DNA of 64,000 nt from Misgurnus anguillicaudatus (taxonomy: Eukaryota > Chordata > Actinopteri > Cypriniformes > Cobitidae): NCBI RefSeq assembly GCF_027580225.2, contig NC_073351.2:6552501-6616500 (forward strand), given 5' to 3'. Position 1 is the first letter of the stretch. Each line of letters starts with the position of its first letter. A model generated the notes under the pieces. The model worked only from the letters and a program-made list of their open reading frames with translations. It had not been told where the DNA came from and made no database searches. The translations under genes and the position numbers were made by a program. Positions 32,430 through 54,954 of the stretch are shown piece after piece.

Positions 32430-33417
32430 TATCCTTCAGTTGATGTTCATACATAAGGGTGGATACTTGGGGAAATAAATCCAGGAAAGTGAATTTCAAG
32501 GGGGAATGGAGTTCCAGTTCAGAATGTAGAGGATCTTTTTACAAATGCTATGCTAATTTCATGCAAAAATATTGTGGGATTTTCTGCATCTACCCAGTGA
32601 ATTACATTTTTACCCATGTTATTACAACATTGGTAACAAAATAAATCTCACTGCTTTTTATTATATAGTATAAGTCACTGTAAAACTAATAAAAGTCAGA
32701 GCACTCAGGGTTGGTTCATTCTGTGAAATGCTAGATCCTCAAATGGTATTTTGACTCATAATGACTCATATAATGTTTTCAGGTTTTTACATGGATAACA
32801 TGCTTTTGGAAATTGACTGCACTGTTTTAACCATTTGAATGTATGTTTTTTTTTTCATATACAGTAGTGTGGAAAAGTGTTTGCCCCCTTCGTGATTTTT
32901 TGTCACACTTTAAAGGAAAACACCACCGTTTTTCAATATTTTACTATGTTCTTACCTCAGCTTAGATGAATTAATACATACATATCTTTTATCAATGCGT
33001 GTACTTTTAATCTTTGTACAGCACTTCTTGAATGTGTTAGCATTTAGCCTAATGCTCCAAACTAAAGTTTTATTTTGTGCCTCCATATTTACTCGTGTAA
33101 CTACTCATGTAACTACTCATGTAACAACCTTTAAATAGGGAAAACATGGAAGTGTTTGGTGGCTTCTAAATTCATCCCTGTTTGGAGACATAGGAATGAA
33201 TGAATAGGCAATAGGGAGGAGGCCAATGTGCAGGAATTGAGTTTTTGACACAGCCCGAGCAGTTTTTTTACAAGTAGCCTACTCGCGGATGTGCGAGCAT
33301 CTGTGACAAAAATATGGAATGCACAATCAGGTTTTTACTGCTCATTTGCATGACACGTCAACCATTTTATGTCACCATGCTCTCAGTTAATGAAAGAGCA
33401 GGAGAACTTCTAGCCTA
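32430..33417. other. 3' UTR of the vwa7-like gene and spacer with repeat fragments
   Basis: Candidate polyadenylation signals are at 32640 and 32688. A Tc1-type terminal fragment (cagtagtgtggaaaagtgtt) starts near 32863, and a ttaaaggaaaacaccaccg fragment near 32911 resembles the ends of TTAA-type MITEs. No coding exon is seen. Confidence 0.5.
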
Positions 33418-35028
33418 CACTGTAAAAAAAAAACACAGAAAAAAACGAGCAAATGCATGGCAGCACAGGGTGCCAAACGTTTGCCATTTATGAAAATAAC
33501 GGTAAAACCCCATGAACTGAAGTAACATGTTTACACAGCTACATGAAAAAAAGAACATTGACCAAACAGTACTATAAAATTAAAAAAATGTAATCTGAAA
33601 TACCATATTTTGTCTGTATAATTGCAAATACATGCATAGACCATTAAATGTAATGGCATTATTTGACTGTAAGTTAACGTAACATGTTTAAACCCTTTTT
33701 AATAAAACATGTTTTGACTGTAAACGTAAAAGGATGGTGTAACAGTTGTTTAACATGATTTCAATGTAGATATAAATGACATGTTGATACCATCACTTCA
33801 TAAAGCATATTTTGAATGTAAACTGAAATCATGTTTTATCATTATTTAACAGAGTTTGACCGTTATTTGAAATAAAAAGTATTGACCGTTATTTGAAAAA
33901 TGAACTGTGATGGACCATAATTTTGAAAGGCATGTGCAGCATTTTTATTTTGATTATGGCTTACAGATAATTTTATATGTAGTTCATGAAATGTATGTTA
34001 TATGTCACACTAAAAGTCATTATAGAAAATAATTTGTATTTCCGCTCTTTATTTTTTTCTGTAACAATAGTTTCCATTGTAAATAACAACAATATTAAAA
34101 ACTGTGTCACAGTATCATCATATGAACATTGCTTATATGCTTAAAATACAACATTGACAATTCAAAGTAATGTCATCATTGCATCTTCCACAAACTACAC
34201 TTCGAACAGAACAATGGTCTCCAATTCAATCTCCATGTTGATGCCTTTAAATAAAAAAGAGAAAATGGTTATATATCATCCATCACATATCTATTTTAAT
34301 TATGATGTCTGATCATGTTACTCTTTTTAGATGTTCTTACACTTCTTACATAAAAGAAATTTGGTCCATTAAATATGTAATGCACTTACAAATTTTATGA
34401 ATCTTACTTCTTCAGCCAGTTAAGTGATGTGACCTCAGCCACTGACAAGGCCAATGGTGCACTGCAAAAAAGCAGAAACAACGTAAATACAGTAACACTT
34501 GTTGATTACAATTTTATTTTCAATATTATATGCCAGCATATTTACCCAGTAGATTACCTCACAATGTCGCAGGAAATGTCACCTTTTGCTTTCTATGGTA
34601 GACATTTTTTGTGTGCGTTTCTTTCTGCACTGTTTTGATCTTTCTTGATAAATCCCGCCTTCACGCACGCCATTGGTCAAACTGCTTCTCAATCATTGCC
34701 CTTGCCCAACAGCATCAGCCAAAACATAGCAGCAGCCTGTTATCTTCAGGTGGTACACAATGCTCCAAAACAGCGTAAAAATGCCTCGAGAAAAAAATCC
34801 CTGTGTTTTTGTTTTGGTCGGGAAACTTACTCATTGACATGGTTAATAAAACACGGAGCGGAGTTGGGTTCGCTGGAATATTTGCAGGCGTCAGTTTGTT
34901 TTCAAAATTCGTAAGTGACTTTGTTAAGTAGCTTTGTGTGTTAGGCAACATATTCTGCTGTATGGATGCAATATATAACACAATGACAAATCAAAACAAT
35001 CATGGACCTCGATGTCAAGTCGTGAATG

Positions 35029-35206
35029 GTAAGTGTTTAAAAAAATCTGTTGACGTATTATCCAACCTAATTTAAAGGTTAACTGGCAACAGGTGAATAC
35101 AATTACAATAGTTAATCATCACATACGTTTTTAAATCTTATTGTTTGATGCAAGTTGCATTAAAAAGTACTAAATAGGTTTCTGAATTGTGTTGTTGTTG
35201 TTTTAG
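35029..35206 (+). other. Probable 5' UTR intron of the element A genes
   Basis: The donor CGTGAATG|GTAAGTG at 35029 and acceptor gttgttgttttag ending at 35206 bracket a short intron just upstream of the zinc-finger frame. The same borders are conserved in element B (about 47268 and 48944), although there the intron has gained a 1.5-kb insert. Confidence 0.5.
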
Positions 35207-35923
35207 AACGTTGCTTTCACAATCATTTAAGAAGACTCGTTTTCCTGGACAACGAATTTCATCTTATGAGGTGTGTTACCTTCCAACATATGGATGATTA
35301 TGTATTTGTGCAAATTTTGTGATTGCTCTCTGAAGACAGTTAAGGGATATGTTAATCATCAAATCTTACACAGACATGAAGCAAATATTCAATTTCCATG
35401 TTGCTTCCCAGAATGCAAATGTAAATTCTCAAAATACAATGCTTTCAAAGCTCATGTTTATCGGCATCACAAAAGACCACATACTCATTTTGATGAATCG
35501 ATGGGCACGTTTGTTTGCAACAGTACAGAGTGTCAACAAAAATTTACAGACATGACCAACGTCCTTTCTCATCTCAGGTCACATTTAGCCAAGGGAGAGG
35601 TGGTGTGTTGTCCTTTTGAAAAATGTGACAAAAATTTCCGTTTAAGATCAAGTTTCACTGCCCATGTTTCACGAAAGCACAGGACTTCTACATTTGCACA
35701 ATTACGGATTATGGATACTTTATCTGAGCAACCTTATTCAGCATTTTCTGATGTCACTGAGGATGAGGTTAATGAAAATAATTTGAAAGACTCACCGACT
35801 AAATGTAACACACATTCATTGTACATGAAAAATCTCTGCCTGTTTTATATGCAGCTGCAAGCCAAATACCTGGTGCCATCGTCAACCATTCAAATGATTG
35901 TGGAGGAAATCAGTGGTTTAAAT

Positions 35924-37381
35924 TAGGGGTGCACCGAAATTTCGGTCGCCAAAACCTTCGGCCGAAAATGGCATTATCGGTTTCGGGCCGAAATAAAAAA
36001 TCTAGCCGAAAATGTAAACCGAAAATGAATGTCAACCGCGCCCCTTTCATCTGTGCGCTAGCGCTCGGGTTTCACTCAGCCTTCACGGTGATCAGTCGTC
36101 TCCCACCCCTCCCCTTCGTGCTCAAGCAGGTTTCACTCAGGGTCCAGCTGTTTGCACGCGTCTGCAAAGATTAAGAATGTCTTGATGTGTAAACTTTAGA
36201 GAGAGTCGCGCTATGTGTCTCTTACTGTAATCCATTAACGTACATTTGGCGAATAAAGCAATGAAACACAACGTAACGTTTTTATGTGGAGGGACTGTTG
36301 CGCTGTTTGGGATTCAACATCAGTCTCTGTATATGCATGCGTTTAAGTGCCCTTAAAGCCGAAAGTATACTAGGGACGTCCGCGTATGTGCGCCATCATT
36401 TTCGTCATCAGGAGGGTCCGTGGCCGGCAGCCCAAAATTTGAGACCGCACGGACAGTGCGCGTACAGTCCGCGTACAACATCGCATGCGCGTGAAAATAT
36501 TTAGACAGGACACTCCACTACAAACAATTATACAAAGGAAATAGACAGCATTTGCACACATACTATCGTTTTTCTTCTTTAATTTTATTTCATCCATAAA
36601 CAGAAAGCTGTGGAGCATGTTTGTTACCATATTGTTCGATTCCTGTTCTTTGTTGTCTTCTTGTTTGTTCTAAACTGTGTTTGCAATGGTGGATCGGTTT
36701 CTTTTCTTCACCTATCCTAATGTTTTAATGTACTGTAAATGTCTCCAAATCAGTGCTGCACTAGAGTAATAATTTGAATAGAGACGCGTTTAAAAAAAAA
36801 ACAAGCAAACATAAATTCTCTCTGTTATTGAAAGGGCACATATAAACAAAATTCTCTCCACAGTATTCTTTTTCTAATAAAAACATTTGTTTATGTCTGT
36901 ATAGATTACAGTCAGATTAACCTACTGAAGTCTGTGTCATTAATGTTGATCAAACAACCCATGACAAAGAGACAAATAGCTGTAAAAAATAATAATATAT
37001 TTAATTTATTGTGTTATGATTCATTTAATTTGATTTCTGTACCTAATGCTAATTTCAGACCTTATTAATGTACAACTTTGTTCTCTTTTATAAATGTTTG
37101 CAATTTCTTTATTGTTTATTAGATTTTTCCCACCTGCTTTTTGCTGATCCGAAAAATAATCTCACCTGTGCCTCAAAAACTGTAATGTGATCCGAACTGT
37201 GAGTTTTTTTATCCGTCACACACCCCTAGTAAAGTTAGCACACAGTGATAGCCATAAATGCAATTGTACTAATAATTGGCATAATAATTTATTTCGGTGT
37301 TTCGGTTTCGGTTTTTCGGCCTTGGTTTCCTTTTTTCGGTTTTCGGTTTCGGCCAAGAATTTTCATTTCGGTGCATCACTA
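35924..37381. mobile_element. hAT element (1458 bp) inside the transposase gene
   Basis: Ends TAGGGGTGCACCGAAAT and ATTTCGGTGCATCACTA are flanked by perfect 8-bp duplications GTTTAAAT (35916-35923 and 37382-37389). Multiple ttcggttttcgg-type subterminal blocks occur at both ends. No transposase frame, so non-autonomous. Confidence 0.93.
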
Positions 37382-39384
37382 GTTTAAATTATATCTGTCA
37401 TCAATACACACAGAAGTTGTTCAGTGAAATACTCAAGTCAAAAACAGCCCTCTCACAATGTGATATTGAATCTGTGGTGCAGACTTTGCAAGGCCAAGAT
37501 TTACATTCTGCTTGTAATTCATTACTTTCCACAGAATACCAAAGAAGACAGTATTATCAGAAAAATTTTTCATACGTGCATCCACAAAGTATGTGTCTTG
37601 GTCGTGATGAGAACAGAAAACAACGTTATGCCCAGTATATTCCATTGAAGAACACTTTAAAAACCATGTTAAACGACCCAGTGGTGTGGGAGCAGTGTGC
37701 CAAACATCAGCATGTAAACTCTTCTGTATTCTCTGACATCTGTGATGGCTCTGTATTCAAATCCAATGACTTGTTTAAGCAGCCAGAGATTACAATCCAA
37801 CTTATCTTGTACCAGGATGCCTTTGAGATCGTGAATCCCCTTGGGTCAGCTAAAAAAAAACACAAAATGATTGGAGTGTATTTTACACTTGGCAACTTTG
37901 AGCCATTTTACAGATCATGCATTGATAACATTCAGTTATCACTTTTGTGTTATGAGCGAGACTTTAACTATTTTGGTCAAACCAAGATTTTTTCTAAGTT
38001 GGTGGCAGATGTCAAAGAGCTTGAAGAGCATGGATTTGTGACATCTTCAGGAGACATAGTACGTGCAACAATTGTGGCTATTATCGGTGATAATTTGGGG
38101 TCCCACTGCATCGGAGGTTACTCACAGAACTTCAGTACTGCCAAGCATTGCTGTAGGTATTGCTTGCTATCTCGCAGTGAACTTCAGAATGTGTGTGTAG
38201 ACTTTCCCAATCGCACAGTTGAGTCCTATAAGGCAGCAGTGGAAACTCTAAGGATGTCCGAAGAAAATTTTGTAAATGGGTTGAAGTTTGACTCCATTTT
38301 CAACTCTCTCAAATATTTTCATGTTGCTCAGCCTGGCCTTCCTCCATGCCTTGGCCACGACTTGTTTGAAGGCGTTGTAGCTATCGATCTTGCCATTTTC
38401 TTGGAATACTTTGTAAAAAGGAAGTGGTTTTCATATACACAGCTGAACAGGAGACTTGCACAATTCAAATATCTGGATTCTGATGCTGGTTCTGCCCCTT
38501 CCCATGTATGTGAAAAAGGCAGAAAGTTAGGTGGTCAAGCAGCTGAGAACTGGTGTCTCCTCAGATTTCTTCCTGTCATAATTGGAGACAGAGTAGAGTC
38601 ACAAGATCCTGTATGGCAACTGACTGTTAAGTTGAAAGAACTGGTTGAGCTAGTGTGTGCTCCCAAGATTACCACTGCACAGATTGCATATCTCAATGTC
38701 TTAATACCAGAATATCTGGAAACCAGAAAGGAGCTGTTTCCTGGTCAAAATTTGAAACCAAAACACCATTACATACTTCACTATACGTCAATCATTTTGA
38801 GTCTTGGACCTTTAATTCGTTTATGGTCATTAAGATTTGAAAGCAAACATTCATACTTCAAAAGAAGTATGAGAAGAACACAGAACTTCAAAAATGTATG
38901 CAAGACATTGGCACACAACCATCAACTTCTTCAAGCATATCTTCACTCACGGTCATTTTTTTCACCAAAGCTTAAAAGTGTTGACTTGGCCACATACTCT
39001 CCTCATTTGTACAGTGATGCTGTGTGCAAAGCTGTTGAGAAGAGCTTGCTTAATGAACCAGACTTCGTTTCAACACGGGTAGAATACAAGGGTACCCTCT
39101 ACAGGAAAGGAAACTTAATTTGCCTTAAATGTGAAGAGGAATATTTTATTTCACAATTTGGACAGATTGAGCTGATTTTCGTGAAAGATGATGATGTGAC
39201 TTTTCTTGTTACTCCTCGTCCCTCAATGTATTTGCATGATTATGGACTTTATGAGATTTTGCCTGCGACAAAGGAACTAATTTGTGTAAATGCTGAGGAA
39301 TGTCTGGATTATTATCCCTTAAATGAGTACAGTTTCATGGGACTGAAGGTCATTACTCTGAAGCACAGCGTTGTTCATCTGTAA
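37297..39384 (+). CDS. Transposase catalytic part, 3' fragment of the split gene
   Basis: The open frame runs 695 codons, but its first 28 codons are hAT-derived (FGLGFLFSVFGFG) and the next three (SLN) come from the duplicated target. Real transposase sequence starts at 37390 (YICHQYTQKLFSEIL). Acidic candidates are at frame residues 174, 265 and 515. It might be expressed from within the hAT sequence as an N-terminally truncated protein without zinc fingers, which is speculative. Confidence 0.75.
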   Translation: MFRFRFFGLGFLFSVFGFGQEFSFRCITSLNYICHQYTQKLFSEILKSKTALSQCDIESVVQTLQGQDLHSACNSLLSTEYQRRQYYQKNFSYVHPQSMCLGRDENRKQRYAQYIPLKNTLKTMLNDPVVWEQCAKHQHVNSSVFSDICDGSVFKSNDLFKQPEITIQLILYQDAFEIVNPLGSAKKKHKMIGVYFTLGNFEPFYRSCIDNIQLSLLCYERDFNYFGQTKIFSKLVADVKELEEHGFVTSSGDIVRATIVAIIGDNLGSHCIGGYSQNFSTAKHCCRYCLLSRSELQNVCVDFPNRTVESYKAAVETLRMSEENFVNGLKFDSIFNSLKYFHVAQPGLPPCLGHDLFEGVVAIDLAIFLEYFVKRKWFSYTQLNRRLAQFKYLDSDAGSAPSHVCEKGRKLGGQAAENWCLLRFLPVIIGDRVESQDPVWQLTVKLKELVELVCAPKITTAQIAYLNVLIPEYLETRKELFPGQNLKPKHHYILHYTSIILSLGPLIRLWSLRFESKHSYFKRSMRRTQNFKNVCKTLAHNHQLLQAYLHSRSFFSPKLKSVDLATYSPHLYSDAVCKAVEKSLLNEPDFVSTRVEYKGTLYRKGNLICLKCEEEYFISQFGQIELIFVKDDDVTFLVTPRPSMYLHDYGLYEILPATKELICVNAEECLDYYPLNEYSFMGLKVITLKHSVVHL

Positions 39385-39411
39385 AAAGGATAAACTGTCC
39401 TTTCCCAACAG

Positions 39412-42267
39412 AAATGGATGCATTGTTGCATTTTATTGAGACTGTGTTCCCAAACCCTACTACTTCAAAGCTAGCCATAGAGGGTTTGAACAGCCTAGGT
39501 GTGGAGACCATAGATGACCTACAGTTTTTGAAAGATGATGATCTAGGTGGCTTTCTGAGACCAATTGAAGCAAGAAAACTAATAGCCCAAATCCCAAGTA
39601 AGTTTTCAAATCAATGGTTATTTTTACATATACACTAGTCAATATTTGAAGCGGATCAAAAAAGTTCATTAAGTTTTCCTAAAACAAGAACAGGTATTGG
39701 GTATTGGTTTTAAGACAACTATTATGAAAGGTTTGATCCACTTTAAATGTTAATTATTGTACATGCATACAATTAGATGAAACGGAAAAAACAACACCCC
39801 AGGTCTCTTTCATTCTGTACTTTGTTAGCTGTACTCTTTACTTGTATTACAGTATAGTATGTCAATATGTTTCTTGTTTCTGCAGTATGGTTTTTAATTC
39901 AGTTTGTTGTTTATGCCATGTAGATATTGCTTCCAATCTGCAAAACACTGCCAATGATTTGTGTGCTGCTGAATACACATCTGATGCATCAGGTTCACCT
40001 GCTCCTGGATGTTCAATTTCACCATCCAGCTCTTCAAGTGGAAGACATGAGTAAAAAGCTTAAACAACATTAAACAATCCACAAACATTTTGAAAGCAAA
40101 ACATGTAATTTGTCAATTCTTGGAATTCCTATACGGAGAATTTGCATTGTGAGCATGCCCAGCCTTTAGCATGCGCAGTTCACAGAGATGTCTGGGTGTG
40201 GTTGTGTGTAGAAATCTGCAGATTTATTGTACACTAGTCAACATTTGAAGTGGATCAAAAAAGTTTTGTATTTTGATCCACTTCAAATTTTAAATAGTAG
40301 TTTGATAAAGAACAAACTGTGATGGCACGGGGCCTCAAAACATTGATTTTGAAAATTGCATATCTTGTGATCCGTACATGTGCCACTGTGGTGACTCTGT
40401 GGTGCATGAATAGCCAAAATATCATCCAGTTGTGTGTCATCCGCAGCTTATGCCAGCAGAGAGTGAACACGGTTGTGCGCTGCTCAAAGCAACCACAGGG
40501 CAGTGCAGCAAATCACCAGCAACATGTTAAATGTGCCATTTTATGCTAGTGATTTGTTGCACTGTGGTCCTGCGGTCCCTGTGAACAACGCACAACAGCG
40601 TCCCCTCCTCTCTGACAATAATACACTGTGGACATAAAACAAGTCTGTGCACCACTTGCATATTCACACACATGCATATTCTATAATGTGGCACATTAAC
40701 AAACCCACAGTGTCCCATGCCATCTCTGTTTGTCCGTTATTAAACTTCAATAAATCTGCAGCTCGTCAATAGGCAATTTTGCAAAACATTAAAGCTGCAT
40801 TAAAAGTTCATCCTATAACCTGTGGACATTGGTTTATCTTCTAGGTGACAGTAGCTGTGAAACTTCATTCTATGATCATGACTGGCATTATAGTTTTGAT
40901 GTTCCATGGCAAAAAATGCCAGCAAGTTTTATGGAAAAGTTGCAAAATGGCGAAAGGCCAAGTTGCTCTGAGAGAAGACAGTTGGTCTGCGTTGTTTCTT
41001 CTGAGATCCTGGAAGTCAGCAAATGTCCAGCAAAAAAACATGTATCAGAAATAGCCCGACAGATGGTGATTACATACCCAAACTCTTTTAGAGATGAGAT
41101 TAATTCCCAGGTTGTAGGAAGTGGATATGATTCTCTCCTCAAACAACTGGTGTGTAGAATTGACAATTGTAAAAGAGCAAAAGCTATTAGTACACCACTT
41201 TGTGGTACTCTAGAAGTATCAGCAAACAAACGAAAGTCGGTGTATGGTTGTATAAATTCTGATCCACAAATGCCAGTTGGAGAAACATCTGAATTGCAGC
41301 AGGAAAAAAAAAGAGAAGTTGCTAGTAATGTTTCAAAATAACGAAAGTGATGTAAAGACAATCTATGACTTAATGACTTCTACTTAAACCTCTCAAAGAA
41401 ACGACATCCAATCTGGAATAGAAACCAATGATTTACTTGATGCGTGGCCATATCTTTTTCAGCCAGCAGGAATGAAAGCACACTTTAAAGAGCTCACTGG
41501 CATTGACATAAACAACAGCTTTGAAGAATCTGCTTCCAGTAAGTTCAGAAGAATTTTGGAGTACTTTCAATTTCAGTGCACAGAAAGAGCAAGCAGAGCA
41601 GGGAGAATCCTCACAAAGTATAGAGCTGGAGGGGATCATGTTTGTGGGGCAGTGATGTTGCTGCTAACCCATTTCAAAAATAACCAAGACCACTTTCTTG
41701 TGATGGTAGAAGACACCTGTGTTCCAAGTGATATATGCTCAGAAAAGCTTCCAGCAACACCATGTATAGTAGTGTGTGGTGGGTATTATTTTCTATGATC
41801 TTGCACCACAGTAATTGTTTCGGGTGACCAGGACCCACAATCTGTTAAATATTATGTCTTAACTGATTTTTGTGCTTGTTCAAAGGAGAGAACCCTCTGA
41901 CAGCCAGTGTGTACATGGTAGCAGTAGACCAGATGATTGTAAATTACCATCTCTTGAGTTTTACAGAAGCCCTGTATCTGATGTTCTCTCTTTACTATAT
42001 ATTGAACATCAGTTACCCTGTGGAACTGGGAGCCACACTAGAATTCTTGCAAAGGTAATTCATCGGATGCATTCCTTTTGGTTAAGAAGGTTACAACAAT
42101 TATTTAAGGTTATTGTTTGTGTTGTTTTGTTTTAAAGGTGCATCTTTAGAATAAATCCTCATAAAGGTACCAAGGTGGAAAAGAGAGAGAAAAAGAGAGC
42201 GTACTCTGTCAATCCCAGAGTATTGAATCTGACGTCAAAAATTGCTGCATTTGACTGGGGAGAGTAA
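39412..42267 (+). pseudogene. SAM-domain second gene of element A (samd3-like family)
   Basis: Likely exons: 39412-39597 (ATG at 39414, SAM-like fold, LNSLGVETIDDLQFLKDDDL), 39924 to about 40037 (Ser-rich linker), 40845-41778, 41886-42054 and 42138-42267 (stop TAA). Phases fit at 39597/39924, at 41778/41886 and at 42054/42138. The third exon carries the family block PWQKMPASFMEKLQNGERPS, YDSLLKQLVCRID and, in a second frame, WPYLFQPAGMKAHFKELTG. A one-base shift in an A9 run near 41305 and a TAA at 41385-41387 break it. The acceptor of exon 1 lies 27 nt after the transposase stop, suggesting alternative splicing from a shared 5' exon. Fish proteins named as resembling SAMD3 share this layout; function unknown, perhaps an accessory or regulatory transposon protein. 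Confidence 0.7.
40239..40291. repeat. Perfect hairpin in the SAM gene intron
   Basis: tttgaagtggatcaaaa and ttttgatccacttcaaa are perfect inverted 17-mers around a loop of about 10 bases. Related sequence with the same cactagtcaa prefix lies at 39632-39745, so both are remnants of one MITE family. Confidence 0.7.
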
Positions 42268-44324
42268 CGGGTATAGAAGCTTTATTGTCTTGTATAGTAG
42301 TGGTAGACTTCATTTTCTGTGTTTATCATTCATCGATGATAAAGTGCACCAAATACAATTTTTATGATTAACTCCAATAAATGTGATGTAATTGTCTGAG
42401 AGTATTTGGTTAAGGCTTGTTGCTGTTTCTGCCCTTCTTTTGGTTTGTGTTTTAATTATAACTGTTTGTGTCCCCACAGATGTGGTCTTTCAGAAGATTG
42501 ACATTTCTCTGAAGAACAGGACAGACAGACTTTTTGTACATCAGTGCAGTGATTTGTTCCTTAAATAATTTTTATAACCTTGTGATGTGATTGGGATTGT
42601 CAGAATACAGGCCCAGTGTTTTGTTTGTTTGTAAATTGAACAAATTTGTGTTCTAAAACATACCTTGTCCATTTTTACCCATGTGACATGTTCGGGATAA
42701 TCAGAATCCAGGTCGGCGACGACTTTTTTTTTTTTATTGAACAAATTTGTGTTCTAAAAACATGCCTTATCCATTTTTACCCATGTGACATGTTCGGGAT
42801 AATCAGAATCCAGGTCGACGACTTCTTTTTTTTTTATTGAACAAATTTGTGTTCTAAAACATGACATTTGGTGGAAGTGTTATTTCCATTCCATTTTGAA
42901 GGCTTGCTATATAATAAAAAGCTAAAGTTGTTAACAGCAATACTCTGGATCCCATCATTTATTGTATAACATTTTACAAAAGTGCTAGCTGTTTTTGGTG
43001 TATTTTGTAAATATGCAGTACAATTTCTGTTTCAAGTATTTTTCATTAGTTTTTAGCATTACATCTGTCACACAGTATGCCAAGATGTCACGGTACATTT
43101 TGTTTTAAAAATATTATGGCATGAAAACATGTAAGCCCGGATTTGCTAACTGTTTGTGGCAGTGCACACTTTCTTAATGTGTTTAAAAGAACTGTCAGGG
43201 TTTACAGAAGACTGGATAGAAAGGCATGCACAGTGATTATTGCATCTCGACCTAATTGGATATGCATTTGTAGGACATTTCCTTTATGAAAGCACAGTAT
43301 TAAGGTATTCAAATATAAGTGGCTTGCAGTAGTCTGTTTACTGCTTAGTCTCTTTAACGCCTCCAAAAAGCATCCTTTAACCCTTTTTTGTGCCTGACCT
43401 GACAGTGATGGTTGCTAATTACACTTTTTTTTATTTGGTCTTTATGGAAGTGAGCTGCTGCAGATGTGTTTTTTTGCACAGTGTTAGTTTAGTTGTAGAA
43501 AACATTCAAATTTATCCTGAAGTCTATTTTACTCTGCCAAAAACAATATTAGCACATTTTAAGTTAGGATGCATTCTATTTACCATTAATGTGATTGTTC
43601 ACATTATGAAAATCTGTCTTGTACTCTCAAGTTGTATAAATTAATTTGTTTTGCTAACCACAAAGAAATTTATTTTCACTAATGTTTGTAACCCAACAGT
43701 TCAGTGACAACTTTGACTTCCATGGTATTTTTTTCGACTATGCACTTAAGTCATGATATAACGTAAGGAATAATGTTTCCGGGTATACTGTAGAGGTGTA
43801 AGTATCTGCCAATATGGATAGCATCTAATTAGTATTTACACTTAGTGCAAATTTGATAGTTATATTTATTAAATGAAAATTATTTACACCTAATGTAAAT
43901 AGCATATTATGTGCAAATGCTGATATTGTCACTTAGTAAAAATAATATATCTGTATTTTTCTTAGTGTAATTAGCATCTACCGCTATTTGCACTTTGCGT
44001 AAACAGTTGCTCCCCATTAATAATTCATTAAAAATACGTCCATGAGTCCATGTGTGGTTATTTAGGATTTTGTTATTGTTATTTGACTTAACACGTGAAT
44101 AGGAGGCAGTGGGGCCCCAGCACTGCTTAGTTACAAACATTTTTCTAGTGGAAAATGTTTCCTATTACTATTTTTCTGTATATGAAAATCATAAATCATA
44201 GCTTAACTTAACAATAAACAGATTTTTCGATGTGGCGTAACAAGTGGGTTGGACAGGAGGGTGTGTTTGGATGAGGATACCAATAAGTGAAAGTATAAAA
44301 CGCATACTCGAAATGTGACCTCTT
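42268..44324. other. 3' non-coding arm of element A
   Basis: Contains the tandem repeat at 42635-42865 and AATAAA-type signals (e.g. ccaataaatgtg near 42376). AT-rich tracts near 43800-44000 with repeated ttacacttagtgcaaat-like units may be subterminal transposase-binding repeats. No further exon is recognised. Confidence 0.45.
42635..42865. repeat. Tandem repeat of about 100 bp, 2.3 copies
   Basis: A unit running from attgaacaaatttgtg through ccatgtgacatgttcgggat and a poly-T stretch is repeated at 42635, 42736 and 42836 with few changes, just 3' of the SAM gene. Confidence 0.9.
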
Positions 44325-44488
44325 TAACCCATCCCAATGAGTCGTGAACACACGCGAGGTGTGGGGAGCAATTAGGATAAGGTACCTGCTCAAGGGCACC
44401 ACAGTCGCAACACGCCGGCCGTGAGACTCGAACCGGCAACTTTTGGGTTACAAGCCCGACTCTCTAACCACTAAGCTACTACTGCCCC
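44325..44488 (-). repeat. tRNA-derived SINE in the right arm of element A
   Basis: Read on the - strand from 44488: ggggcagtagtagcttagtg (box A region), then gccggttcgagtctc (box B) and a tail with ccttgagcaggtacc and attgctcccc, the familiar body of fish tRNA-SINEs. The same SINE occupies the same place in element B. Confidence 0.75.
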
Positions 44489-47312
44489 CACGATAATAAA
44501 ATGCTCTAACAGCCACAAGACAACACCGATGCCTTTCGCCACTAAAAACAGCGGCAAAAAACTAAAAAATATGATTTTAGAAAAAACACGGTCCAGCGAT
44601 AGATCGCCTATTTAACGAACTAATGATATGTATGACATGCATGAAAAAAGGAAACAACATAATACATTGTGTCCGATCACCATGAACTTTACAAAATATG
44701 CGCAATTTAACGTCTTCAGTGGCACAGATACTAGTGTGGGTGTGTAAGCCTCATCTCGTAGATCTGACGCTTCAAAGTCCTTGGTTCGAATCTGCATTTT
44801 ATACCTTTTGGTAATACAAATCACATCGAAAAGGCATTTATTTTCAACAAAATTAAGTAGAAATAAAGTGTCTAACGAGTGTTTATTAAAACACTTTGTA
44901 CTATCATTGCATCCTGTTAATGTACAAAAATACTGAGATGCAAATAGAATCTGACAAAATATAGAATACAGCATCTAATTACTTAGACTTATTGCAAACT
45001 ATTGCGACATTTACATGATGTACATAGAATATATAGCTATTTGTGATTAGTGAAAATCACAACTGTTGCTTTTTGCACTTTGTGCACATATAGTCACTGC
45101 CTAATTCAACTGGAAAAATGTAGGCTTTATTTGATGTTAGACTATGCATTTTTAGTAGAAAACACGGTTCTGATGAAAATGTGACATGACTGTAAAATTC
45201 TACTGGTTTTCTCTGTAAAACTAATTTTTTTTTAACTCTGACCAAAAAATACACAGGAATGTTTTTTTAAGGACATTGCAGGATAACAATAGCCAACAAT
45301 TACTGTTATTTAAAGGAAAGTGACATTTTTTTGCAGGAACAAATTTAAATAGTTAAAAAACAGGGAAAATGTACATTAAATGTCAAAGTTAGCATTTTTA
45401 TGGAATTTCACAGTTCTAATCAAAATGTCATAATACTGTTAAATTCTACGTTTTTTTTCTGTAAAAATACATTTATTTTTTACAGTGTACATTAACAACA
45501 AAACATTATAGATGAGAATAAAGGTCTACATCAGTGCCCAATTAAGGAAAACTGGATAGAAGAAACATGTAAAGGATACTAGTATGTATATTGACATGCC
45601 ACTCATATTACAATATGCTATCTGGATATAATTTATTGGATATGTATGTACACTGTACAAAAAACCAGAAAAAAACGAGCAAATGCATGGCAGCACAGGG
45701 TGCCAAACGTTTGCCATTAATTAAAATAACGGTAAAACCCCATGAACTGAAGTAACATGTTTACACAGCCACATGAAAAAAGAACATTGACCAAACAGTA
45801 CTATAAAATAAAAAAAATGTAATCTGAAATAACATATTTTGTCTGTATAATTGCAAATACATGCATAGACCATTAAATGTAATGGCATTATTTGACTGTA
45901 AGTTAACGTAACACGTTTAAACCCTTTTTAATAAAACATGTTTTGACTGTAAACGTAAAAGGATGGTGTAGCAGTTGTTTAACATGATTTGAATGTAGAT
46001 ATAAATGACATGTTGACACCATCACTTCATAAAGCATATTTTGAATGTAAACTGAAATCATGTTTTAATCATTATTTAACAGAGTTTACCGTTATTTGAA
46101 ATAACAAATCTTGACCGTTATTTGAAAAATGAACTGTGATGGACCATAATTTTGAAAGGCATGTGCAGCATTTTTATTTTGATTATGGCTTACAGATAAT
46201 TTTATATGTAGTTCATGAAATGTATGTTATGTGTCACAATAAAAGTCATTATAGAAAATAATTTGTATTTCCTCTCTTTATTTATTTTTTTCTGTTACAA
46301 TAGTTTCCATTGTAAATAACAACAATATTAAAAACTTTAAACAGTGTCACAGTACCATCATATGAACATTGCTTATATGCTTAAAATACAACATTGACAA
46401 TTCAAAGTAATGTCATCATTGCATCTTCCACAAACTACACTTCGAACAGAACAATGGTCTCCAATTCAATCTCCATGTTGATGCCTTTAAATAAAAAAAG
46501 AGAAAATGGTTATATATCATCCATCACATATCTATTTTAATTATGATGTCTGATCATGTTACTCTTTTTAGATGTTCTTACACTTCTTACATAAAAAAAT
46601 TATTTGGTCCATTAAATATGTAATGCACTTACAAATTTTATGATGGTCCACGATAACTTACTTCTTCAGCCAGTTAAGTGATGTGACCTCAGCCACTGAC
46701 AAGGCCAATGGTGCACTGCAAAAAAAGCAGAAACAACGTAAATACAGTAACACTTGTTGATTACAATTTTATTTTCAATATTATATGCCAGCATATTTAC
46801 CCAGTAGATTACCTCACAATGTAGCAGGAAATTTCACCTGTTGCTTTCTATGGTAGACATTTTTTGTGTCCGTTTCTTTCTGCACTGTTTTGATCTTTCT
46901 TGATAAATCCCGCCTTCACGCACGCCATTGGTCAAACTGCTTCTCAATCATTGCCCTTGCCCAACAGCATCAGCCAAGACATAGCAGCAGCCTGTTATCT
47001 GCAGGTGGTACACAATGCTCCAAAACAGCGTAAAAATGCCTCGAGAAAAAATCCCTGTTTTTTTTTTTGGTCGGGAAACTTACTCATTGACATGGTTAAT
47101 AAGCTAAAACACGGAGCGGAGTTGGGTTCGCTGGAATATTTGCAGGCGTCAGTTTGTTTTCAAAAGTAGCTTTGTGTGTTAGGCAACATATTCTGCTGTA
47201 TGGATGCAATATATAACACAATGACAAATCAAAACAATCATGGACCTCGATGTCAAGTCGTGAATGGTAGGTGTTTAAAAAATCTGTTGACGTATTATCC
47301 AACCTAATTTAA

Positions 47313-48806
47313 AGGGGCCGTGAATTGGTCGATTTTATTGCTTTATGACGTTGATTGATGTCTACTTTTGCATTTCGCGTTGTTTTTACATTCAAAAACA
47401 TCAAAAGCAATAAGTAATACGCTATTTTGTAACATGGATTAGTGGCTGTCTTGAGAAATGGTTCGTTTGAAGGGGCGGGCCGCATTGAAGACCTGAACGT
47501 AAACACCCACTGCTATGATTGGACAGCTTCATTCCCCGTCATTACATGTAAAAATGTTTTAAAAACATTAATGTGATAAAAATAGCAGCCGAACACAAAT
47601 ATGTTTGAGACACAAAAGATTCTGGGTGCTAAACATGATACACATAAATGCAATACGTATATTAAAGTAGAAACAAAACTCGACGTGACTAAATTACCGT
47701 ATAAAACACAGTAAGCGTGCATCCGAATCTAAACTGCGGCTAATAAATCCTTATCAATAACTTTGTATATTTCTATTGTGCTTGTGAGGTTGCTTTTACA
47801 TTCACGTAATGTTAAATACCACAGTTATATGATAAAAAATAAGCTTTGTTGAGTGTTTGACCTTTCAAACGCAACATGCCTAAATTACCGTATACAACAC
47901 AGTAAACGGGCATCAGAATCTAAACTGCGGTTGATAAATCCTTCCTTATAACTAACTTTGTATATTTCTACCTTTAAATTACAGTCATATTGTTAAGTGT
48001 TGTACCTTTATTAGTCGTTTAATGTTTTTACTAAATTAAAACAGTCAACAAACGTATTTAGACACGGATGTTACAACAGGACACATCAAGCAATCTCTTT
48101 TAACAAAGCAATAGTGAAACGCAGTAACTTAAATAAAGTAAAATGTCTTACTGTGAATTATACTGCTGTGTCATTGTTGTCAGATCCAATATAAGTGGTG
48201 CTTCTGACTGAGTCTCTCTGCAAATCCAGCATCGACTTCTTTACAAATGAATCCATGTCCACAACGTTAACAAACGCTCCCCACACGAGCTGTAACTTTT
48301 TCAAAAGCAAACTTTATCCAAGCATATTGCTAATGTTAAGTTCCAAGCCTCCGAATTGAAGTATTTAGCTTCTGTGTTGTTCCCATGGTTGTTCCCACGC
48401 GGTTCTTTCACAACCGAAAAAGCGTTTCCATGGTATCATAACAGATCACCGCGTCAAAATAAAAGTCTCTCAGAAAAAATGTATTTAAAAAGTCATTTTA
48501 GTTAAATTTGTCAATCTTTAAAGACATGTTTACTTACTGAGACACACGTGTCACGCGAAGCTGTGGGCGGGGCTACAAAAGTAGACTTGTCCTTTTGGTT
48601 ATGGGGAGGTGTTTCAATTCTACTTTGACGTCATAGATTTCCGAATTTTAGACTGGAGTTTTTAGCTGGCTTGGTGCCAAAGACGGTTATATTTCAGTAG
48701 CACGGACGTTTTCAGTTCTGAAACTTGCAGGATGTTCATTTAAGTATGATGACCTCTTATATAACAAATTATCAAGTTAAAATTGAGTTTTTGATTCACC
48801 GCTCCT
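47313..48806. mobile_element. TTAA-flanked element, 1.5 kb, in B's left arm
   Basis: TTAA at 47309-47312 and 48807-48810 flank imperfect inverted ends (AGGGGCCGTGAATTG; complement of GATTCACCGCTCCT). Excision gives exactly the uninterrupted A sequence (cctaatttaaaggttaac), which proves the borders. Two internal near-copies of gtataaaacacagtaagcg-type sequence occur near 47700 and 47892. No transposase. Confidence 0.92.
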
Positions 48807-49082
48807 TTAAAGGTTAACTGGCAACAGGTGAATACAATTACAATAGTTAATCATCACATACGTTTTTAAATCTAATTGTTTGATGCAAGTTGCATTAAAA
48901 AGTACTAAATAGGTTTCTGAATTGTGTTGTTGTTGTTTTAGAACGTTGCTTTCACAATCATTTAAGAAGACTCGTTTTCCTGGACAACGAATTTCATCTT
49001 ATGAGGTGTGTTACCTTCCACCATATGGATGATTATGTATTTGTGCAAATTTTGTGATTGCTCTCTGAAGACAGTTAAGGGT

Positions 49083-49193
49083 TCAGGTTAGTCCAGAGAC
49101 TGGACAAGTCCAGACTCGGTTTGCATGGGCCATCAGTCCACTGACCACTCCGAGCAATCCCATCAGCACCCCCAGGAACAGAAAGGCCCCCAT
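49083..49193 (-). CDS. Small membrane-segment frame, 36 codons
   Basis: On the - strand, an acceptor-like cttaacag precedes GACTGTGAAATG, then MGAFLFLGVLMGLLGVVSGL, a strongly hydrophobic stretch, and ends in a stop at 49083. It could be a last exon with a membrane helix carried in with the Penelope block, or chance. I do not recognise a family. Confidence 0.25.
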   Translation of the reverse strand: MGAFLFLGVLMGLLGVVSGLMAHANRVWTCPVSGLT

Positions 49194-50050
49194 TTCACAG
49201 TCCTGTTAAGTATGTGTAGTGTGTTGTTCAATATATATGCTCAAGAGGTATGAGAAAGTAGAGGAACATACCTGAGGTAATCATGTACGTAGAGAGACTG
49301 TGAGTTCCACATCCCCAATCAACAGGTGAACACTTCCTTGATTATGTAATAGTTTTAAATGTAATCAGTGTCTTATGACTGTAATTCTTTATTTTAATAA
49401 CTTTATGAGTGTGTGTGTGTATACATTATATAATGTGTACCTCTTTTAGGGTATTTTTAATTTTTATATTTATACTGTGTGTGAAAAATCATGTGTATTA
49501 TGCTACTATAATTTTGTATAGTATGAATGAATTCAATGTATTGTAATATAAGGGTTGTGATTATATGTGTTTCAATTTTAAAGGGTTGTGGCCTACAGGG
49601 TTAGAAGCTGTTTGCCAATATAAGGATAAGCCTAAGGTTTTGTGACCTTGGGGTTAGAAAAGGGGTAGGTTGGGGCTTCTATCAGTGTATGTGGAGATCA
49701 GGGCTCAGGTTTTGTGACCTTGGGGTTTGGGAAAGGGGTAGGTGTGGTGTTCTATTTTTATTTGTGACAAACTGCACAGATATCACCTGACTTGGGGTTA
49801 GGCGTGAGGAAAACTGTGCCATTTTCCTGAAATTGTGTTTAAGGCCTCTCAAGGTGTGTTTGTTCATCTCCTGTGATTGTGATCAGATGTGTTCCTCACA
49901 GCTCTCTGTAATGTGAAAAAGAAGATACATGTATATCAAGATATATTATTTGTAAAGAAATACATTATTTAAAAGTGTGTGTGTATACACAAACCATATA
50001 ACAGGGGAGACTTCAGTGTGACACACTAGAGTAAAGAAATCAGCTGACCT

Positions 50051-52318
50051 TTAGGCCTCATTTAGGCCTCTAGGAAAGGATGTATTGAGTTTTCTAATCC
50101 ACCAACTTTCTGTATTCAGTCTGTCTCTAAGTGACCACTGTGGATCTGATTGTAAGCCAGTAGCCTTAAGTTCCTTCAGTCCGTGTTTTAGGAAATGATT
50201 AACTAAGTGTCTTCTTTTGTCAATCTTGTGAATAATATTATGTACGTGTTGGTAAATTCTAGTGTTAATCTTGTTCTTAGTTTGGCCAACATATTGCATT
50301 TTACATTTATTGCAAAAGATCAGATACACACAGTTGGTCGAGTGGGGGGACAGAGATTGTTTTAGTTCAAATATCTGTTTCGTGACCCTATTTCGTATCC
50401 ACTTCCTATGAACATAATATTTACAGAGTCCAGCCTTACTTTTAGTCTGAGGTTTAGGTACCCTACTGTGTACCAAAATATCTAGTAAGTTTTTATTCCT
50501 GCAATGAGCTGCAATAGGCTTATGTTTTTGTAGGTAAGGCGTGGAGTCTGTAAATTTAAAGAAATTTTCTTTAATCTTTCTGTTCAGTTGGATGCTTTGA
50601 TCGCAGAATTTGGACACCATGGGGATGATCTTTGTTCTCGGTGGTTCATTCACTACGTTAGACGGTTTTGGTTTGAGAAAAGATTTGTGTATGCTCCTAA
50701 GGAAGGATCTAGAGTAATTTCTCTGTCTCAAAGCTGAGAAAAGTATCTTTGTAACTACATCAAATTGGGCTTTTTCCGTGCAGATTCTGTGAAATCTGAG
50801 GAGTTGAGATTTAATGATACCCCTGAATGTATGTTTAGGATGAAAGCTCGACTTGTGTAGTAGACAGTGTGTGTCCGTATCCTTGAAGTATACTCTAAAG
50901 TCTAGTCTATTCGTAGTGGAGAAGTTAGGCCCCTTATATGAGACCACATCTAGGAAGTTTACCTCAGTGTTACTAAGTGTGAACTTGACCTTGATGGAAC
51001 TCTGATGGTTATTAAGGTGTTCAATGAATTCAGAAAAGGTTTCCCTCGAGTGAGTCCAGATACCCCATATGTCGTCTAGGAAACGGAAGTAAGCGTGAGG
51101 TTTTAAAGGAAAAGAGGAGAGAGCAGATTCTTCCCAGGCCGCCATGAATATATTTGCATATGATGGGGCGAACTTCTTACCCATAGCTGTTCCTTTAATT
51201 TGTAAATAAAAATTAGAATTGAATTCAAAGTCATTTTTGTTTAAATTAATGTCTAATAATTTTAAAATATACTCATCTGGTCTTTTACTGTCAGGATACT
51301 TTTCCATGCATTTTTTAACCGCTTCAATACCTGCAGTCGTTTCAATGTTGGTGTATAGGCTATCTATAACTATAGTGAAAAGCATGGCTTCCTGTGGAAC
51401 ATCAATATCTTTAATTTTAGAAATGAAATCATAAGTATCCTTTAAATAACTAGGATGCTTTTGTGAAATGGGGCCTAAGAAATGTTCAATGTATTCAGCC
51501 GTATAGTACGTCTCACTATTGCAATCCGATACTATCGGGCGTCCAGGAGGTATTTTGAAAGGAATGCTCCATTTATCAGGTTCTTTGTGTATTTTTGGTA
51601 ACAAATAGAAACGTCTGGCTCTGGGAATCGTAGGCCCTTCTAAATATTCTATCTGCTTCTCCTTTAAAATATTTTTCTCACACATTTCCTCTAAAATGTC
51701 TCTCACTTCCTTCATGGTGTCCAAATAAATAGGTTTTTCTAGACTTTTGTAATGCTCGGTCACGGCTAATTGTCTCTGTCCCTCCCATACATACTGGTCT
51801 CTGTCCATGATAACTACTGCGTTGCCTTTATCGGCTGGTTTGATCACAATGTTTTTGTTTTGTTGCAACTCTCTAATGGCCTTTCTCTCTAATACCGTAA
51901 GATTTGAGCCTGGTTGGATGGACCAGTTGAGGTGTTTAAGAGCCAGGTAGTCTGCTCTGATTATAGAGGGTATCTGTTTGGGTAAACTGGATAACGCTGG
52001 TGTCCAATCAGACCCATGTGTGAACGGCAGCTTCTTCTTTTTACTCTTTCTAGGTTCAAAAAAGGTTTCCAATTTGAGCCTCCTATGATATTTTTGTAAA
52101 TCATTCTGTATTTCAATTTTCTGTGTTTTAAAACTCTGTGGTGTTGGAATAAAAGAGAGGCCTTTAGAGAGTACAGCTTCTTGTGTCGGTGTAAGTTCAA
52201 ACGAGTCGGAAAGGTTAATAATAAGACTATGTTCTCCAAATTTCTGGCTTATGCTTGGAGCAAGTTTAAATGTTTCGCCCAGTGTTTTAACATAGCCCTG
52301 GCCGTGGTAGGTTTCCAA
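50051..52318 (-). CDS. Penelope-like reverse transcriptase with GIY-YIG endonuclease, 755 residues
   Basis: The uninterrupted frame shows the hallmarks of Penelope-like elements. It has IVIKPADKGNAVVIMDRDQY (157-176), LLPKIHK (239-245), GRPIVSDCNS, the motif A region TIVIDSLYTNI (315-325), KGTAMGKKFAPSYANIF, the catalytic FRFLDD (411-416), and a C-terminal GIY-YIG nuclease: VYLIFCNKC (664-672), YVGQT (676-680), R687 and E737 in NTESWWIRKL. The CxxC beside the nuclease fits the Neptune-type branch. Odd point: where the family has TIDVxSLYTNI, this protein has Val317, so the first catalytic aspartate of the polymerase seems replaced. Such elements copy RNA into DNA at a nicked target; this copy is probably polymerase-dead in spite of its open frame. 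Confidence 0.88.
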   Translation of the reverse strand: METYHGQGYVKTLGETFKLAPSISQKFGEHSLIINLSDSFELTPTQEAVLSKGLSFIPTPQSFKTQKIEIQNDLQKYHRRLKLETFFEPRKSKKKKLPFTHGSDWTPALSSLPKQIPSIIRADYLALKHLNWSIQPGSNLTVLERKAIRELQQNKNIVIKPADKGNAVVIMDRDQYVWEGQRQLAVTEHYKSLEKPIYLDTMKEVRDILEEMCEKNILKEKQIEYLEGPTIPRARRFYLLPKIHKEPDKWSIPFKIPPGRPIVSDCNSETYYTAEYIEHFLGPISQKHPSYLKDTYDFISKIKDIDVPQEAMLFTIVIDSLYTNIETTAGIEAVKKCMEKYPDSKRPDEYILKLLDINLNKNDFEFNSNFYLQIKGTAMGKKFAPSYANIFMAAWEESALSSFPLKPHAYFRFLDDIWGIWTHSRETFSEFIEHLNNHQSSIKVKFTLSNTEVNFLDVVSYKGPNFSTTNRLDFRVYFKDTDTHCLLHKSSFHPKHTFRGIIKSQLLRFHRICTEKAQFDVVTKILFSALRQRNYSRSFLRSIHKSFLKPKPSNVVNEPPRTKIIPMVSKFCDQSIQLNRKIKENFFKFTDSTPYLQKHKPIAAHCRNKNLLDILVHSRVPKPQTKSKAGLCKYYVHRKWIRNRVTKQIFELKQSLSPHSTNCVYLIFCNKCKMQYVGQTKNKINTRIYQHVHNIIHKIDKRRHLVNHFLKHGLKELKATGLQSDPQWSLRDRLNTESWWIRKLNTSFPRGLNEA

Positions 52319-52494
52319 TGTATGTAATCATGTTCGACCAGAAATTGTGTTTGAGACAGGGGAGGTATAAAGTTTGTGTTCTTGTGAATATAATTATTCA
52401 GCTGTTCAAGAAAGGACTGTTCTTCTACCGGTAAGGATCTAGAAAAGTTGAGCATAGGGACGTATAGCTGAGTGTTGGGTAAACGTTTCCTCAC
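52249..52494 (-). pseudogene. Overlapping upstream frame of the Penelope-like element
   Basis: MRKRLPNTQLYVPMLNFSRS followed by VEEQSFLEQLNNYI and HDYIHWKPTT. It overlaps the start of the 755-codon frame by 70 bases in another phase. It could be the original N-terminal region separated by a frameshift. Confidence 0.4.
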
Positions 52495-52782
52495 TATGCT
52501 GAGAACTTTTTCAATCTCTTTGTTATTGTTATTTGTTATATTTGACTTAACAGGTGAATAGAAGGCAGTGGGGCCCCAGCACTGCTTAGTTACAAATATT
52601 TTTCTAGTGGAAAATGTTTCCTATTACTATTTTTCTGTATATGAAAACCATAAATCATAGCTTAACTTAACAATAAACAGATTTTTCGATCTGGTTTAAC
52701 AAGTGGATTGGACAGGAGGGTGTGTTTGGATAAGGATACCAATAAGTGAAAGTATAAAACGCATACTCGAAATGTGACCTCT

Positions 52783-52946
52783 TTAACCCATCCCAATGAG
52801 TCGTGAACACATGCGAGGTGTGGGGAGCAATTAGGATAAGGTACCTGCTCAAGGACACCACAGTCGCAACATGCCGGCCGCGAGACTCGAACCGGCAACT
52901 TTTGGCTTACAAGCCCGACTCTCTAACCACTAAGATACTACTGCCC
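52783..52946 (-). repeat. tRNA-derived SINE in B's right arm
   Basis: Same SINE and same position relative to the right arm as 44325-44488 in A (gccggttcgagtctcgcggc on the - strand). It was therefore already present in their common ancestor. Confidence 0.75.
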
Positions 52947-53475
52947 CACGCTAATAAAATGCTCTAACAACCACAAGACAACACTGATGCCTTTCGCCAC
53001 TTAAAACAGCGGCAAAAAACTAAAAAATATGATTTTAGAAAAAACACAGTCCAGCGATAGATCGCCTATTTAACAAACGAATGATATGTATGACATGCAT
53101 GAAAAAAGGAAACAACATAATACATTGTGTCCGATCACCATGAACTTTACAAAACATGCGCAATTTGACGTCTTCAGTGGCACAGGTACTGGTGTGGGTG
53201 TGTAAGCCTCATCTCGTAGATCTGACGCTTCAAAGTCCTTGGTTCGAATCTGCATTTTATACCTTTTGGTAATACAAATCACATCGAAAAGGCATTTATT
53301 TTCCACAAAATTAAGTAGAAATAAAGTGTCTAACGAGTGTTTATTAAAACACTTTGTACTATCATTGCATCCTGTTAATGTACAAAAATACTGAGATGCA
53401 AATAGAATCTGACAAAATATAGAATACAGCATCTAATTACTTAGACTTATTGCAAACTATGTACATAGAATATAT

Positions 53476-54466
53476 GAAGAGTTTGGTTCCAAAACGCAAT
53501 AAATCCATTTTGACAAATTTTGGTAAAAACGTGTTTTCTATATCAAGAAAGTGACAAGATGAAAACCACTATTTTCTGTTACAACTTTCACATAGCATAT
53601 TTAGGTTATAACAACATAAAAAATTCAAATCCATAATTAGATTTTCAAAGATTTATGATAAAAACTGATTTTTTTTCCACAAAATGCAATAAATCCATGC
53701 CAAGTTTTTATTCAAAATGCTATAAATCTATTGAATCAATCGCCTATGTAAATGTGCATTCATCTTTGCCATGTTATATTCATTTAGTTGACTAGTTGTA
53801 CACACTAATTAAAAATATAAACATTAATGTCATTAATCAAAACACTTACTTTGTCATATTAAGATCACTGTCATTGCTGCGGTTATACTTGACGTCGATC
53901 AGGTGTAAAATGTTTTGGTCCTGCTCGATTTTCGTTGACTAAAATTATGGAAAGTTTTTCATAAGATCTCCTGGGGTCAATGTGTTATCATGACAGAAAC
54001 TTGATGCTGTCGATACGGGCAAACAAGCACCCGTCTCCCGAGTGCCTCTTGCGTAAATTATTAGGTGTTAATGGCTTACGTTTCTTTCCCGTCACAGAAA
54101 ACCATCACAGGTTTATCAATGCTATTAAAGTATTATTTTGTTTGTTTGTTGATCACGAAGTGCAAAGTAGATGAGGAAAACTAGGATTCCGTGCACTCAA
54201 CGCGCCGCCATTGCTTGTTTACATTGCGTGAATGGTGCGCTGCAATCTGTGGAGTGGATTTATGGCATTCTGTAGAAAAGGGGGAGTGGCGTTTATTGCA
54301 TTTTGGGAAAAAAGGGAGAAAAGATGACAGAATAACATGGCGTATATTGGATTTTGCGTAAAATTAAGAATGTACTTTTTAACACTGACCTCATATAATA
54401 CTGATTCTGGCAGTAACTCATTTTTTTAAAAAATGGCGTTTATTGCGTTTTGGAACCAAACTCTTC
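53476..54466. mobile_element. 991-bp element with near 30-bp perfect inverted ends, family unknown
   Basis: The ends read GAAGAGTTTGGTTCCAAAAC inward on both sides and stay identical for about 28 bases. They are flanked by ATAT (53472-53475 and 54467-54470). Element A shows the empty site (gaatatatagc), which fixes the borders. Subterminal acgcaataaatcca-type motifs recur on both sides in opposite orientation (near 53493, 53686, 54255, 54290). No transposase. Confidence 0.9.
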
Positions 54467-54954
54467 ATATAGCTATTTGTGATTAGTGAAAATCACAACT
54501 GTTGCTTTTTGCACTTTGTGCACATATAGTCACTGCCTAATTCAACTGGAAAAATGTAGGCTTTATTTGATGTTAGAATAATGCATGCATTTTTAGTAGA
54601 AAACACGGTTCTGATGAAAATGTGACATGACTGTAAAATTCTACTGGTTTTCTCTGTAAAACTAATTTTTTTAAAACTCTGACCAAAAAATACACAGGAA
54701 TGTTTTTTTAAGGACATTGCAGGATAACAATAGCCAACAATTACTGTTATTTAAAGGAAAGTGACATTTTTTTGCAGGAACAAATTTAAATAGTTAAAAA
54801 ACAGGGAAAATGTACATTCAATGTCAAAGTTAGCATTTTTATGGAATTTCACAGTTCTAATCAAAATGTCATAATACCGTTAAATTCTACAGTTTTTTTC
54901 TGTAAAAATACTTTTTTTTTACAGTGTAGGCTATCTTATGCCTAGAATTTCCTG

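Follow-up and report, generated by a model that had tools for sequence, protein, structure and literature searches.

The 64,000-nucleotide stretch of Misgurnus anguillicaudatus DNA analysed here (contig NC_073351.2, positions 6,552,501 to 6,616,500; hereafter the window, with positions counted from its first letter) contains a real, multi-copy, two-gene CACTA-like transposon of 12,070 bp (copy 1; 33418..45487, + strand), in which a transposase gene is followed, in the same orientation, by a different, spliced gene termed ORF2 (second open reading frame). The transposase is a member of the CACTA/RAG clan, probably of the tnp2/CMC kind, and sequence comparison identifies the core of the ORF2 protein as a homologue of mammal and turtle SAMD3. 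The reading that we prefer, with a probability of roughly 0.7, is that copy 1 is what remains of a cut-and-paste transposon of the animal CACTA-like (CMC/RAG-clan) type, from families that carry a transposase and an ORF2 partner in fixed order, and that SAMD3 probably descends from such a partner. The two-gene plan of CACTA elements is already known; what is new is a variant with a conserved, SAMD3-related partner gene.

Copy 1 is bounded by CACTGTAAAAAA as its left (33418..33429, +) and right (45476..45487, -) terminal inverted repeats, with a TA target-site duplication just outside each (33416..33417 and 45488..45489), in agreement with the original prediction of one 12-kb unit with matching termini and TA flanks, enclosing two different genes in one orientation. 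At up to one mismatch, CACTGTAAAAAA occurs seven times in the window versus an expected 1.59, a count that none of 100 shuffled sequences reached. Furthermore, a copy on contig C18 that is 97-99% identical to copy 1 begins at precisely the first base of copy 1. The subterminal regions are repetitive, as in classical CACTA/EnSpm elements, with a direct repeat of 2 x 105 nt (45129..45479, + strand; units 45129-45233 and 45375-45479, 71% alike) in copy 1 and an array of ca. 100-bp units adjoining the right end of a copy on contig C8.

The association of the two genes recurs across the whole 1.12-Gb assembly. The transposase query gave 66 matches at 62 loci (a lower bound, with 64 of 1,092 first-look candidates scored), and the ORF2 query, the Misgurnus database protein P0145, gave 91 matches at 60 loci (81 of 309 candidates scored). 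An ORF2 was found within 30 kb of 35 of the 62 transposase loci, in all 35 downstream and on the same strand, while within 5 kb a same-strand upstream transposase accompanies 30 of the 60 ORF2 loci and an opposite-strand one accompanies none. Among fetched loci, an ORF2 exon is present in the 1.5-kb downstream flank in 26 of 30, with the strand of the transposase in 26 of 26. Ends were looked for at seven of the 62 transposase loci besides that of the window, and five bounded two-gene copies, representing three families, all end in CACTGTAAAA and are flanked by 2-bp duplications (four TA and one TT), in line with the expected second gene within the same ends and with copies at other loci. In addition to copy 1 these are C8:34181785-34194687 (12,903 bp, TA/TA), C18:37908431-37921328 (12,898 bp, TT/TT), C19:28356972-28377878 (20,907 bp, TA/TA) and C21:10083573-10105665 (22,093 bp, TA/TA); the TT/TT flanks of the C18 copy speak for a duplicated dinucleotide that lies outside the terminus. 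A C9 copy that has lost its left end and has CA as its right flank was excluded from this set, as were two incomplete copies (C18:162 kb, left end only; C33, candidate right end only).

ORF2 accompanies transposase families that are 42-63% identical, and also a second clade with 36% identity to the window transposase. When the distance matrices of transposase and ORF2 were compared for eight families, each represented by one copy, the correlation was 0.84, and 33 of 40,320 permutations gave a value as high. At the level of sequence, then, transposase and ORF2 share a history.

The transposase of copy 1 corresponds to two zinc-finger/DDE open reading frames of the window (35270-35926 and 37288-39384). 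Its first part (35270..35926, +) encodes four C2H2-type motifs (35309-35680), and its DDE part (37382..39384, +) encodes YQDAFE (from 37810), GDNLGSH (38086), CRYC (38152), KPKHHY (38755) and RFESKH (38833). An insert of 1,458 bp (35924..37381), with an 8-bp duplication GTTTAAAT on either side (35916-35923 and 37382-37389), interrupts the gene; we take it to be hAT-like from this duplication and its end sequence, and it is absent from the 97-99% identical C18 copy. Since the insert splits the transposase, and since ORF2 loses its frame near 41325 and meets a stop near 41385, copy 1 is not intact, and represents a dead, decayed copy.

A database search identified 814 protein relatives of the window transposase; among the best 120, the readable names are of fish, sea cucumber, spider and sea spider, and one cluster carries a ferret name next to a tilapia name. 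In an alignment of 44 of these 120, the D, D, C-x2-C, H-x3-H and E columns are invariant, and the DDE, C(2)C and H(3)H motifs are found in the window transposase as well. The CMCT clade (CACTA/EnSpm-Mirage-Chapaev-Transib) is described, in the available portion of the source, by a DDE transposase with C(2)C and H(3-4)H motifs between the second D and the E, by 5'-CA..TG-3' termini and by duplications of 2-5 bp (PMC12730594). Termini of the CA..TG type and a 2-bp duplication are present in all five bounded copies. The tnp2 family (PF02992) is matched at E<=0.1 by 17 of the 44 relatives (best E 3e-5), the window piece itself being unmatched, and DUF4218 by 3 of the 44 (best E 1.9e-4); the prediction of a CACTA-like element with a DDE transposase of the tnp2/CMC kind has its support here in the relatives. 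A search of the PDB with the sequence of the window DDE piece gave nothing at E<=1. A predicted model of the relative P0001, which is 67% identical to the window transposase (predicted local distance difference test score, pLDDT, 86; predicted template-modelling score 0.77), gave 43 Foldseek matches in the PDB at E<=0.001, RAG1 chains taking ranks 1-39 and HzTransib the remaining four, 40-43 (best E 1.1e-10; identity 10-13%). With a RAG1/Transib-like predicted fold, CA..TG ends and a 2-bp duplication, the element therefore answers the description of the CMCT clade.

ORF2 starts 29 bp past the transposase stop, and all of its exons are on the + strand. Exon 1 (39414..39597) encodes an N-terminal part that resembles a sterile alpha motif (SAM) and shows 92% identity to P0121 across 62 aa; exon 2 (39924..40047, end approximate) was read manually against the same protein. 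The main exon (40846..41789, approximate limits) encodes the SAMD3-like core, and the last two exons (41888..42268, approximate), read manually against P0122, end in DWGE and a stop. There are 195 database relatives of ORF2, and among the best 120 the readable organisms are fish and one frog, with names that are mostly 'uncharacterized' or 'hypothetical'; samd3 appears in none of the printed name parts of these 120, which lends no support to the claim that the second gene is normally annotated as samd3-like. Two 'uncharacterized' Misgurnus proteins, P0145 and P0174, have exons that match two and seven element copies, respectively, at 86-99%, and to this extent annotated fish proteins are transposon ORFs, as had been proposed. 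In a separate observation, the Merluccius polli protein P0238 joins an ORF2 C-terminus to a PF13359 stretch (presumably of Harbinger type) and, by eye, to a second ORF2-like C-terminus, and probably results from a gene prediction that ran across nested transposons.

The relationship of ORF2 to SAMD3 is one of cores. A search with a human SAMD3 protein sequence gave 247 matches, the best 120 of which include SAMD3 of mammals and a turtle; 16 of these 120 formed a SAMD3 profile, which was compared, by hhalign (E-values of single comparisons), with a profile of 38 of the 120 best ORF2 relatives. The two aligned at 96.9% probability (E 1.4e-10) over 332 columns past the SAM region, and the cores alone at 97.3% (E 2.1e-11, 329 columns, score 88.5, the best of 100 column shuffles scoring 29.7); a transposase profile, included as a control, gave 0.3%. 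The predicted samd3 likeness therefore holds for the protein core and finds no profile support in the SAM part. All 16 SAMD3 sequences have a clear PF00536 SAM domain, the trait of the SAMD3 family, which was found in none of the 38 ORF2 members; the SAM evidence in these consists of SAM_TNK (PF22931) alone (E<=0.1 in 14 of 38, best 0.003), so that a weak SAM-like match stands and the description of a SAM-domain protein was overstated.

A second type of ORF2 came to light when turtle SAMD3 was searched against the loach genome, which gave nine weak matches, the strongest of them 26% identical with an E of 1.1e-6. Those at ranks 1, 2, 4, 7 and 8 lie 356-1,692 bp behind a same-strand transposase (P about 1e-17 for five of nine, under random placement with matches treated as independent). 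At the best of these loci (L060), an open 915-aa transposase is directly followed by a 338-aa frame, ORF2b (L060:1394-2410, minus strand), with a PB1-like N-terminus and then a SAMD3-like core. ORF2b matches turtle SAMD3 alone at E 2e-11 and, in a BLASTP comparison against just the 16 SAMD3s, all 16 (E 3.5e-17 to 2.6e-10); by hhalign it aligns with the SAMD3 profile at 96.4% (E 1.1e-9, score 74.9; 100 shuffles <=27.5) and with the ORF2 profile at 95.7% (E 9.1e-9, score 69.3; 100 shuffles <=25.9). Turtle and mammal SAMD3 are 62-71% identical, and no clear SAMD3 orthologue in that range was seen in the loach genome with the turtle query. Because the loach has divergent transposon versions and no clear orthologue, descent from transposon to host, in the lineage leading to mammals and reptiles, is favored, and SAMD3 may have begun as the partner protein of a transposon and been domesticated, a direction that we infer.

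The preferred reading would operate as follows. The transposase, with its RAG1/Transib-like predicted fold, would recognise the CACTGTAAAA ends by its fingers, and would cut and join at a 2-bp target, mostly TA. ORF2 would act as a second subunit, by analogy with TnpA in maize Spm, its conserved core putatively binding either the transposase or the subterminal DNA with its many repeats. At the N-terminus, a self-association module that can be exchanged (SAM-like in the window element, PB1-like in the L060 family) would cluster ORF2 copies, and this clustering may pair the ends or regulate the promoter. SAM and PB1 domains are both self-association modules, which is why an oligomerising role is preferred for the partner. 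SAMD3 would then probably have arisen by domestication of an ORF2 of this kind, with a genuine SAM domain ahead of the core.

Several observations weigh against this reading. Five of the 35 transposase-ORF2 gaps exceed 5 kb (5.4-17.6 kb); 27 of the 62 transposase loci have no ORF2 detectable with P0145, of which other queries pair four and leave 23 unpaired; and four of the nine turtle SAMD3 matches are near no detected transposase. In the transposase, the zf-C2H2 profile just misses its curated cut-off (24 versus 25.2 bits, E 4.8e-5), and a Pfam search with the window DDE piece matched no family. The N-terminal part of ORF2 has no profile similarity to the SAM of SAMD3 (hhalign 0.0%), and in the PDB its profile gave five matches at E 0.47-1.7, none of them SAM by name; the PB1 match of ORF2b (E 0.005) is under its curated cut-off; and the predicted ORF2 model (pLDDT 78.5) has no Foldseek match in the PDB at E<=0.001.

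A further point of this kind, that around 25 of the 60 ORF2 loci the 62-locus search shows no transposase within 30 kb, would suit ORF2 being an ordinary multi-copy host gene near which transposases inserted. This idea is scarcely credible and was rejected on the strand and order of the pairs, which are downstream and same-strand in 35 of 35 cases with none opposite within 5 kb, and on the bounded copies: ORF2 lies inside five bounded elements with 2-bp duplications, which contradicts a SAM gene standing apart from element ends, and near-identical two-gene copies sit on different contigs. Negligible, too, is the chance that the boundaries at 33418 and 45487 are accidental and enclose two genes from unrelated repeats. 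The terminus is common, as that explanation would have it, with 504+491 genome-wide occurrences of CACTGTAAAAAATAA versus 15+12 for the reversed pattern, and 1.5 kb around each of eight sampled sites contained none of the window element's interior, bar one 43-bp match; however, the starts of the C18 copy and of a second copy in the window agree with copy 1 in terminus and sequence although the flanks differ, and the gene order recurs in other families. The eight sampled loci, which have TA outside in six cases (CA at L001, AA at L002), were rejected as family members for want of a shared interior, and the ca. 1,000 occurrences may mark numerous other elements that these transposases move.

The two remaining alternatives concern the origin of the second gene. 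It is quite unlikely that the element is a canonical plant-type EnSpm/CACTA with ORF2 as a diverged TnpA, an account with which the pairing of a transposase and a second protein, the tnp2 matches of relatives and the subterminal repeats are compatible. Spm, which also has subterminal repeats, has CACTA ends and a 3-bp duplication, whereas the loach ends read CACTG and the duplication is of 2 bp (TA, TT), and we know of no link between TNPA and SAMD3. Possible, if doubtful, is the capture of a host SAMD3-like gene by the transposon, with ORF2 as a passenger, or recruited once and retained. Homology by itself gives no direction, loss of SAMD3 in the loach or an early capture is compatible with the data, and a single capture followed by long co-descent would also give matching histories; gene uptake by transposons is moreover known, TET/JBP genes having been captured by several fungal DNA transposons, including EnSpm, according to the available part of one account (PMC12730594). 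Against capture are the presence of ORF2, with matching histories, in families as far apart as the 42-63% range, plus the 36% clade, and the many transposon versions, with no clear orthologue, that the turtle query retrieved. For the wider form of the partner-protein reading, in which RAG-clan animal transposons carry a standard second subunit (a conserved core with a swappable SAM- or PB1-like self-association domain) and SAMD3 is its domesticated copy, an accessory protein rather than a transposase turned host gene, we consider the odds to be even.

Other features of the window concern mainly the second copy (copy 2; 45651..54926, + strand), which belongs to the same family, has its own TA flanks, is internally deleted and has lost its coding middle. 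It is 95-99% identical to copy 1 across matching stretches, lies in the same orientation and is separated from it by just 163 bp (45488-45650); tandem duplication was rejected because the outer flanks differ. TAGCCTA in the left flank of copy 1 (33400-33417) is the reverse complement of TAGGCTA in the right flank of copy 2 (54927-54945), which could be coincidental or reflect insertion of a composite into a palindromic target. In place of its coding middle, copy 2 has another repeat (49082-52525), whose minus strand resembles, by eye, a Penelope-type reverse-transcriptase element. Copy 2 also has two more inserts (47316-48805, ca. 1.5 kb; 53461-54466, ca. 1.0 kb). In the introns of ORF2, 39631-39666 and 40230-40298 are short, partly inverted repeats of each other and possibly represent a small nested element.

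The RAG/Transib duplication is of 5 bp. Compared with RAG1/RAG2 and HzTransib, the loach element has a similar predicted transposase fold and shares with RAG the character of a two-protein system; it differs in the low sequence identity noted above and in an ORF2 model for which the PDB gave nothing at E<=0.001. SAMD3 of mammals and turtle has in common with ORF2 roughly 330 aligned columns of core sequence past the SAM domain; it differs as a host gene that is conserved and whose SAM domain is clear, the N-terminus of ORF2 being weakly SAM-like or PB1-like. In maize En/Spm, a transposase is likewise joined by a second protein, TNPD and TNPA both being required for transposition, as summarised in the Schistosoma report (PMC1636069, available in part). 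That report's SmTRC1, an animal TRC-type CACTA element, has a Transposase_21/tnp2 transposase, is placed in the CACTA superfamily, shows, in 7 of 14 copies, a direct repeat of 2 bp next to its ends and has relatives in Danio rerio; it resembles the loach element in its 2-bp repeats, in encoding additional proteins and, as far as the tnp2 matches of relatives go, in its transposase. In the text available, however, those proteins are alternative splicing products for which its authors found no relatives (PMC1636069), whereas ORF2 of the loach is a conserved gene in its own right, with kinship to SAMD3. The fungal EnSpm-like transposons termed ESTA are, in the part of their description at hand, like the loach element in belonging to the CMCT clade, in their TA duplications and in carrying a second gene, and unlike it in that this gene is a TET/JBP dioxygenase and that RAG1 similarity was detected by sequence (PMC12730594). 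Among papers on samd3 with transposons, judged by titles and abstract openings, none treats such an origin, and none joining CACTA with the sterile alpha motif was found.

Many fish gene models named 'uncharacterized' that contain the ORF2 core would be transposon genes, with effects on gene counts and association studies. The available text of a carp study reports bone-number-associated single-nucleotide polymorphisms in a gene named Samd3 (PMC8945855), and that of a parrotfish study an insertion/deletion sex marker adjoining a gene named samd3 (PMC11258905); either of these two genes could be a transposon ORF. The RAG clan would gain a further two-protein type of transposon, and with it material for testing why such elements retain a partner, and the origin of SAMD3 becomes directly testable.

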